Both the position numbers and the translations under genes were made by a program. 52,659 nucleotides of DNA, from NCBI GenBank assembly GCA_018396415.1, contig JAGTRE010000005.1, forward strand, positions 35,388-88,046, read 5' to 3'. Source of the DNA: Candidatus Bathyarchaeota archaeon. GTDB lineage: Archaea; Thermoproteota; Bathyarchaeia; RBG-16-48-13; JAGTRE01. A model generated the notes under the pieces. The model saw only the letters and a program-made list of their open reading frames with translations. It was not told the DNA's origin and made no database searches. This document shows positions 247-2,953 of this stretch, one piece after another (positions within the stretch are counted from its first letter, which is position 1; the number at the start of each line of letters is the position of its first letter).

Positions 247-468
247 ATGTGTCTTGCAGTTCCGGCAAGGGTTGTGGAAATTAAGGGAGAAAAAGCTATA
301 GCAGATTTTGGGGGTATTCGACGCGAAGTCCTCTTATCACTTGTAGGCAAAGTGAAAATCGGGGACTACCTCATCGTCCATACGGGTTATGCCATTCAAG
401 TTATGGATCGTAGGGAAGCGGAAGAAACTCTGAAACTTTGGAAAGAGATTCTTCAGGAGCAAAAATAG
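247..468 (+). CDS. hypC: HypC/HupF-family hydrogenase maturation chaperone
   Basis: A 73-residue protein starting MCLAVPARVV. HypC binds HypD through the N-terminal Cys2 and helps load the Fe(CN)2CO unit into [NiFe]-hydrogenase. Cys2 is present, followed by the small beta-barrel (IADFGGIRREV, VGDY-like turn) and a helical tail, all of normal length. I chose the ATG at 247 rather than an in-frame start five codons upstream because family members begin exactly at MCL and Cys2 must be exposed after Met removal. Its partner gene hypD lies 1.4 kb away on the other strand, so this is a loosened hyp cluster. No hydrogenase structural gene is visible. Confidence 0.95.
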   Translation: MCLAVPARVVEIKGEKAIADFGGIRREVLLSLVGKVKIGDYLIVHTGYAIQVMDRREAEETLKLWKEILQEQK

Positions 469-1839: not shown

Positions 1840-2953
1840 TTACAGTTTATGCTCAATATATCGCATTGCAATATAGCACGCTCCTTCTCGGCTTACGGCG
1901 CATGGACCGATTGGCTTGTTTGGTGTGCATACTTTATTAAATAACTGGCAATCCTGAGGATAGATTAAGCCACGTAAAACTTCTCCGCATCGACAGCCTA
2001 GGGGAGGTTTATATTTCTCCTCGATTCTTACGTCAAACCTTTTTATCGCATTAAAATTCTCAAATTTTGACCTTAACTCAAAGCCTGAGAAGGGAATTTT
2101 TCCAATTCCCCGCCAATCAGCGTCTCTAATGGTGAAAACTTCCTTCATCATTTTTTGGGCTTTAACGTTTCCCCTCTCGCGAACCGACCGGGTATATTCA
2201 TTTTCGACGGTTGCACGACCACTACGAATTTGCTTAAGTAGCATTGTGATAGCAATTAGAACGTCAATAGGTTCGAATCCTGCGATAACTTGGGGGATAC
2301 AATATTTCTTGGAGAGGGGTCGGTATGGTCGTGCACCTATTATCGTTGAGACATGACCTGGGCAAATAAATCCAGCTATTTTGATTTCACCTAATTTTAA
2401 TAGGTGTTCAAGTGCTGGGGGAATTAAGCGGTGGCTACAAATTATACTGAAGTTTTCCGGAGGTTTCATAAGTAGCTCGGCAGCGGTGGAAGGGGCTGTA
2501 GTTTCGAAGCCTATAGCAAAGTGCACATACTCATTTTTCGGATCTCGCCTGGCCATTTCGACTGCGTCATGAATGCTGTAGACAACTTTAACATGCCCGC
2601 CTCTAGCTTTAACATCAGCAAGTGAACCGATTGCACTGGGGACACGAAACATATCACCGAAAGTGGTTACAATAACATTGTTTCGTAGGCTCAGCTGGGC
2701 GGCCGCGTCAATTTCATCTGGGCTTGTAACGCATACTGGGCATCCGGGACCGGATCGGACTTCAACGTTGGAAGGAAGAAGACTCCGCAATCCAAATTGA
2801 ACTATGGTTGCTTCATGTATCGGCCAACTTCCATTATAAAACATATGGAAGCTGTGTGCCGCATACGTGCATAATCAAATAATGCTGTTCGCCAGCTAAT
2901 GTTTTAATATAGTTTGAAAGGTCACGAGCTAATTCCCTATTTCTATAATCCAT
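1840..2953 (-). CDS. hypD: HypD hydrogenase maturation protein, interrupted by a predicted 37-nt mRNA intron
   Basis: HypD carries the 4Fe-4S cluster on which, with HypC and HypE, the Fe(CN)2CO unit is built. The gene reads as two frames. The upstream part (2953 down to 2856) ends in IMHVCGT and then runs into an early stop; the downstream part begins HEATIVQFG and continues to 1840. Joining complement(1840..2818, 2856..2953) gives 358 residues, normal for HypD, with CGTHEAT at the junction, GPGCPVC, GFETTAPST, HV-S and the C-terminal CRCGEVLRG, PQDC and PIGPC cysteine blocks. Unspliced, translation would stop after about 39 residues. Start ATG 2953 matches family N-termini (DYRNRELA); an in-frame ATG at 3040 is less likely. 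See the separate intron entry. The alternative is a frameshifted pseudogene. Confidence 0.88.
2819..2855 (-). other. Predicted bulge-helix-bulge intron in hypD mRNA (37 nt)
   Basis: On the minus strand the transcript reads UAUG-CGGC-ACA, then an inner arm CAGCUUCCAU / AUGGAAGUUG (10 bp, one G-U) with a 10-nt loop, then GCCG-AUA-CAUG. CGGC/GCCG forms the four-pair central helix, ACA and AUA are the two three-nucleotide bulges, and UAUG/CAUG forms the outer helix. This is a full hBHBh' motif. Cutting after the second nucleotide of each bulge (AC|A, AU|A) removes exactly 37 nt and joins GGC AC to A CAU GAA, giving Gly-Thr-His-Glu in frame. Folding and junction were worked out by hand from the sequence. 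Confidence 0.88.

Follow-up and report, generated by a model that had tools for sequence, protein, structure and literature searches.

Introns in the pre-mRNA of archaeal cbf5 genes were reportedly described in 2002 by Watanabe and in 2006 by Yoshinari. Those of Desulfurococcales and Sulfolobales were surveyed by Yokobori 2009 (PMC2738675); as of that survey, cbf5 was the sole archaeal cellular protein gene with demonstrated bulge-helix-bulge (BHB) introns, and there is earlier mention of introns predicted for further archaeal protein genes (PMC2738675). The BHB introns of archaeal tRNA and rRNA have the same substrate motif as the locus described here and would share its endonuclease and ligase. 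For pre-mRNA, an article on these enzymes in NAR 2025 refers to the cbf5 work alone (PMC12397907).

We analyzed a hypD gene that, unlike the usual HypD (TIGR00075; 2z1d), is interrupted at the CGT/HE junction of a conserved motif, and for which we are highly confident that a BHB intron in the mRNA is the best explanation. It shares with the cbf5 introns (16-44 nt) that it is short, lies in a protein gene and falls within the codons of a catalytic motif; it further resembles them in its patchy gain and loss, in predicted cuts between bulge residues 2 and 3, and in its expected dependence on a hetero-oligomeric EndA. It differs from them in gene and site (HypD CGT/HE). Most hypD BHBs are canonical hBHBh' motifs, whereas most cbf5 BHBs are unconventional, and splicing has been demonstrated for cbf5, whereas we infer it for hypD. 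In contrast to tRNA and rRNA introns, the hypD exons are protein-coding, so that the BHB strands located in exons have to specify conserved residues as well.

The interrupted hypD gene

In the window, by which we mean the whole 52,659-nt stretch of DNA that was analyzed, the gene occupies the minus strand. Exon 1 (2856..2953, 98 nt) begins with an ATG at 2953, from whose Met the hypD homologues align, and has ..TGC GGC AC as its last letters, a phase-2 break inside the Thr codon of CGTHE. It is followed by the predicted 37-nt intron (2819..2855; 5' splice site 2856/2855, 3' splice site 2819/2818) and by exon 2 (1840..2818, 979 nt including the stop), whose 326 open codons keep all motifs and encode GPGCPVC and the C-terminal Cys motifs. 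Read unspliced, exon 1 continues as ..VCGTQLPYVL and then meets a TAA.

With the 37 nt removed, the gene reads ..VCGTHEATIVQFGLR.. and stays open as far as 1840. The product is a complete 358-aa HypD in which both CGTHE and GPGCPVC are present; it scores 471 bits against TIGR00075 (cut-off 192.8) and matches the solved HypD structure 2z1d over its full length (E 7e-106). A first-pass annotation of this DNA had claimed that hypD is out of frame through these 37 nt only, and that canonical cuts restore CGTHEAT. Translation bears out both points: canonical BHB cuts give the predicted exon-exon joint ..TGCGGCAC/ACATGAA.. and restore VCGTHEAT. The gene for the HypD partner chaperone, hypC (247..468, plus strand), is intact and lies near hypD on the opposite strand (TIGR00074 91.2 bits, cut-off 48).

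The bulge-helix-bulge motif

The annotation had described a full hBHBh' motif at 2819-2855 and left the strand unstated. The motif is there, on the minus strand, where the RNA reads UAUG-CGGC-AC/A-CAGCUUCCAU-AUGUUUUAUA-AUGGAAGUUG-GCCG-AU/A-CAUG (slashes mark the predicted cuts). The outer helix of 4 bp, one of them G-U, is formed by UAUG in exon 1 (2862..2865) and CAUG in exon 2 (2814..2817), the latter including the His codon. The central 4-bp helix pairs CGGC of the Cys-Gly codons (2858..2861) with GCCG of the intron (2821..2824). Two 3-nt bulges lie on opposite strands, the 5' bulge ACA at 2855..2857 and the 3' bulge AUA at 2818..2820, each with its predicted cut past the second nucleotide (between 2856 and 2855, and between 2819 and 2818). 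The intron hairpin within (2825..2854) consists of a 10-bp stem (2854-2845 with 2834-2825) and a 10-nt loop (2844-2835). Thus, the segment has all elements that define an hBHBh' motif: the 4-bp central helix, the opposed bulges and the flanking helices.

In the minimum-free-energy fold of the host segment, GUAU/AUAC replaces the outer helix at an energy approximately 4 kcal/mol below that of the canonical BHB; the central helix, the 5' bulge and the inner stem are common to both folds. This predicted energy difference in favor of a fold other than the canonical BHB is counted, as a caution, against splicing in the host.

In a scan of the window for BHB geometry the hypD site was the top scorer, and it ties for the top score across 423 kb of the host genome. 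The motif coincides exactly with the frame break, and its cuts restore the frame. The view that a random insertion is unlikely to provide both fold and frame agrees with 200 dinucleotide shuffles of the window, in which motifs of equal strength and no longer than 60 nt occurred at 0.095 per Mb of strand, or approximately 0.01 per window; with all scanned lengths admitted, the score of the hypD site was matched in 13 of the 200 shuffles. Rfam models matched only a tRNA in the window, with no group I or II self-splicing intron or other RNA family.

Inserts at the same site in other genomes

An insert at the CGT/HE junction of hypD occurs in at least ten genomes from two classes, nine times at the identical nucleotide and once (G137) shifted by 2 nt. 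The lengths range from 20 to 37 nt and cover every residue modulo 3, and removal restores CGTHE in all ten cases. The host (G000) has 37 nt, and in its own class G127 and G137 (L140) have 33 nt each. In the class of Ca. Methanomethylicota archaeon B10_G16 (G084, QMRB01000001.1) the inserts measure 26 nt in G084 itself, 21 nt in G298, 20 nt in G300, 25 nt in G297 and 22 nt in G296, as well as 22 nt in G299 (L158) and 23 nt in G301 (L159), the last two placed by alignment with their neighbors because of an A-C mismatch in their outer helix. Such BHBs would need relaxed EndA recognition. The G084 insert (L035) came from a set of 15 loci taken from named records, and genomes were matched between searches by contig and coordinates. 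The exact 37-nt copy comes from one assembly, the comparison set being drawn from outside the host's own family.

Of 257 genomes searched in the host's class, 192 have hypD, and at least two besides the host are interrupted at CGT/HE among the matches listed (G127 and G137). Of 40 genomes from the class of B10_G16, 34 have hypD and seven an interrupted copy; a phylum-wide search placed these seven in the host's phylum, six belonging to a single family and the seventh to a different one. The query of that search was a hybrid (N-terminus from G298, remainder from the host) and was used for distribution only.

The reading of the segment as a BHB intron gains from these nine further genomes with foldable inserts at the same site. 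When aligned with its relatives, a check that the first-pass annotation had named, hypD proves to be without the segment in most of them, with CGTHE uninterrupted. Relatives sharing the frameshift without a foldable motif, which the annotation would have taken as evidence against an intron, did not appear, the interrupted ones carrying a BHB that restores CGTHE.

Nine of the ten inserts follow the consensus TGCGGYAC/A-hairpin-GCCGAN/NCAYGA. The exception, G137, has a different central helix (UGUG/CACA), and its hypD sits far off in the HypD tree, amid intronless genes, which suggests that its insert is a separate gain. Since the tree requires no fewer than three changes on the starred branches, with a best fit of four and a direction that is not readable from it, the hypD intron was likely gained at least twice, or gained and also lost.

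Several other hypD genes came up as candidates and were rejected. In G061, G148, G249 and G219 the matches are split, yet CGTHE is intact in the copies whose motif was read, and the TAA or TAG flags in hypD of G047, G019 and G031 are located away from the CGT/HE site. As a separate observation, hypD matches occur at two places on one contig in G249 (C1:1809471 and C1:1047877), G061 (C1:346074 and C1:348182) and G148 (C1:674623 and C1:728977); these pairs may be duplicates, fragments or rearrangements.

Conservation of structure and selection on the exons

In an alignment of nine motifs, hand-cut to the four inner pairs beside the bulges, with loops removed and with a structure chosen from the same sequences, which favours it, standard pairs occupy 97.2% of helix cells, changes on both sides occur in five of the 12 helix pairs, the covariation score is reached by no shuffle, and pairing falls to 28-36% when the partner is slid by 1-3 columns. 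The central helix is nearly invariant, and the covariation is contributed by the inner stem together with a single outer pair.

The exons were compared by dN/dS, which is 0.056 for the pair G299 and G301, with inserts of 22 and 23 nt, respectively, and 0.06-0.10 in the other computable pairs, synonymous sites being saturated in many hypD pairs. These ratios indicate that the exons of intron-bearing hypD genes are under purifying selection.

Alternative explanations

The interruption could be bridged in translation, with ribosomes shifting by +1 or hopping over the insert on uncut RNA. Such a bypass would find two reading frames that overlap by several codons in the host, and matching take-off and landing codons in one of the ten inserts (G296). 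The other nine, however, are without the matched codons of a classical hop, and nine of ten hold an in-frame stop when read unspliced. Nor is the offset constant, as the lengths leave remainders of 0, 1 and 2 modulo 3, even in close relatives (22 versus 23 nt). A frameshift product would gain residues within CGTHE, a motif unbroken in intronless relatives, and what is conserved is the structure of an EndA substrate. RNA splicing explains the combination of lengths varying through all residues modulo 3, in-frame stops and purifying selection, whereas a frameshift or a fixed hop does not, and we regard translational bypass as highly improbable.

The disrupted frame and the stop in the raw DNA are also what a pseudogene broken by a small insertion would display. 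This idea deserves hardly any credence: exon 2 is open throughout with all motifs present, the host has this hypD only and carries NiFe-hydrogenase genes, the low dN/dS (0.06-0.10) is found in intron-bearing relatives, and the insert has been kept in all six genomes of one family. An assembly or sequencing error might be suspected because the assembly behind the window is a draft of 30 contigs, but different inserts with the same fold occupy the same site in independent genomes, in two of which (G296 and G301) hypD lies on a single contig of more than 1 Mb, making an error extremely unlikely. It is scarcely more than conceivable that HypD is made in two pieces, with exon 2 translated from an ATG of its own (2844) and acting together with a short N-terminal peptide. 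An in-frame ATG for exon 2 does lie inside the host intron; this arrangement, however, would part CGT from HE in an active-site motif that is contiguous in intronless homologues, and would leave a conserved BHB of 20-37 nt in ten genomes unexplained.

Splicing machinery of the host and proposed mechanism

The host genome (1.39 Mb, 30 contigs) encodes two tRNA_int_endo (EndA-type) proteins, their genes being at G000 C10:24216 and C2:137318. One aligns best with the archaeal tRNA-splicing endonucleases 2cv8 and 3p1z chain B, keeps the VYxxGPG, HAPY and VKK stretches and appears to resemble the catalytic subunit; the other, which has no His stretch, probably serves as the structural subunit. The RtcB ligase is encoded at G000 C2:90883-93678 by a 1032-aa ORF in which the family match is split by approximately 1.45 kb, a gap that suggests an intein. 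Most tRNA genes of the host are longer than intronless tRNA, measuring 85-145 nt with the introns assigned by ARAGORN, and most of the 24 Rfam tRNA hits (L049-L072), a low number, span 85-134 nt. Introns are thus abundant in the tRNA genes of this genome, and a number of these genes may contain multiple introns or have escaped detection.

With splicing as the preferred reading, hypD would be transcribed together with its 37-nt intron, and the pre-mRNA would fold as a BHB over the Cys-Gly-Thr/His codons. The tRNA-splicing endonuclease, which is probably of the (alpha-beta)2 type and built from the two EndA-type subunits, would cleave both 3-nt bulges between nucleotides 2 and 3, and the exons would be ligated by RtcB to yield an intact HypD with the catalytic Cys in its CGTHE motif. 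We infer all of these steps, from transcription through cleavage and ligation to the enzymes that act, from genome sequence. HypD itself is probably needed by the host, since hypD is single-copy in a genome that encodes several NiFe-hydrogenase-type large subunits, three of them with C-terminal DPCxSC motifs.

Other candidate introns in the host genome

The cbf5 gene of the host (L091) contains an 18-nt insert (G000 C3 6914-6931) that interrupts the catalytic Asp codon between its first and second letters and fits the site and size class of the cbf5 introns reported in PMC2738675. We also observed that cbf5 apparently carries an interruption at this Asp codon in many relatives of the host's class (L117, L118, L122, L131, L136, L138) and in G084 of the other class (L099).

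BHB scans at strict and relaxed settings, combined with a test for fused ORFs, covered 423 kb of the host genome (approximately 31%, window included) and recovered both hypD and cbf5. Nine other fused-ORF candidates look like neighboring genes or gene starts when their translations are inspected; the candidate at C4:26563, for instance, reads as an Orc1/Cdc6-like gene with another, dissimilar gene behind it. The relaxed scan gave 39 candidates, most of them judged from their listing alone, and further introns may be present among the candidates. In a search for a shared origin, the 13- and 14-mers of the hypD intron had no copy elsewhere in the sampled host sequence, and one 12-mer was repeated once.

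Implications

The literature search, which covered few subscription journals, found no paper on hypD introns. This agrees with the first-pass annotation, which knew of none; its picture of an isolated case has to be amended, as it was unaware of the recurrence in other genomes. The kind of element, an archaeal BHB pre-mRNA intron, is already known; what appears to be new is the gene, the conservation and the apparently repeated gain. Apparently, hypD joins cbf5 as the second protein gene of archaeal cells in which BHB introns are conserved.

As a tentative and rather doubtful extension, BHB introns may settle time and again in the codons for catalytic motifs of conserved archaeal genes (the catalytic Asp in cbf5; CGT/HE in hypD, with at least two separate gains), either by a route at the level of RNA, for example reverse splicing with retro-integration, or because only introns at such positions resist loss; in that case, the splicing state of the hypD mRNA could act as a gate on the maturation of hydrogenase.

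Archaeal pre-mRNA splicing would thus be more than a lone oddity, given a second gene, two classes and an additional, separate gain in almost the same codons. Gene-finding programs would divide hypD genes of this kind or annotate them wrongly, and comparison of genomes can address the origin of their introns. For the lineages concerned, the prediction is that production of NiFe hydrogenases would depend on the enzymes of tRNA splicing.
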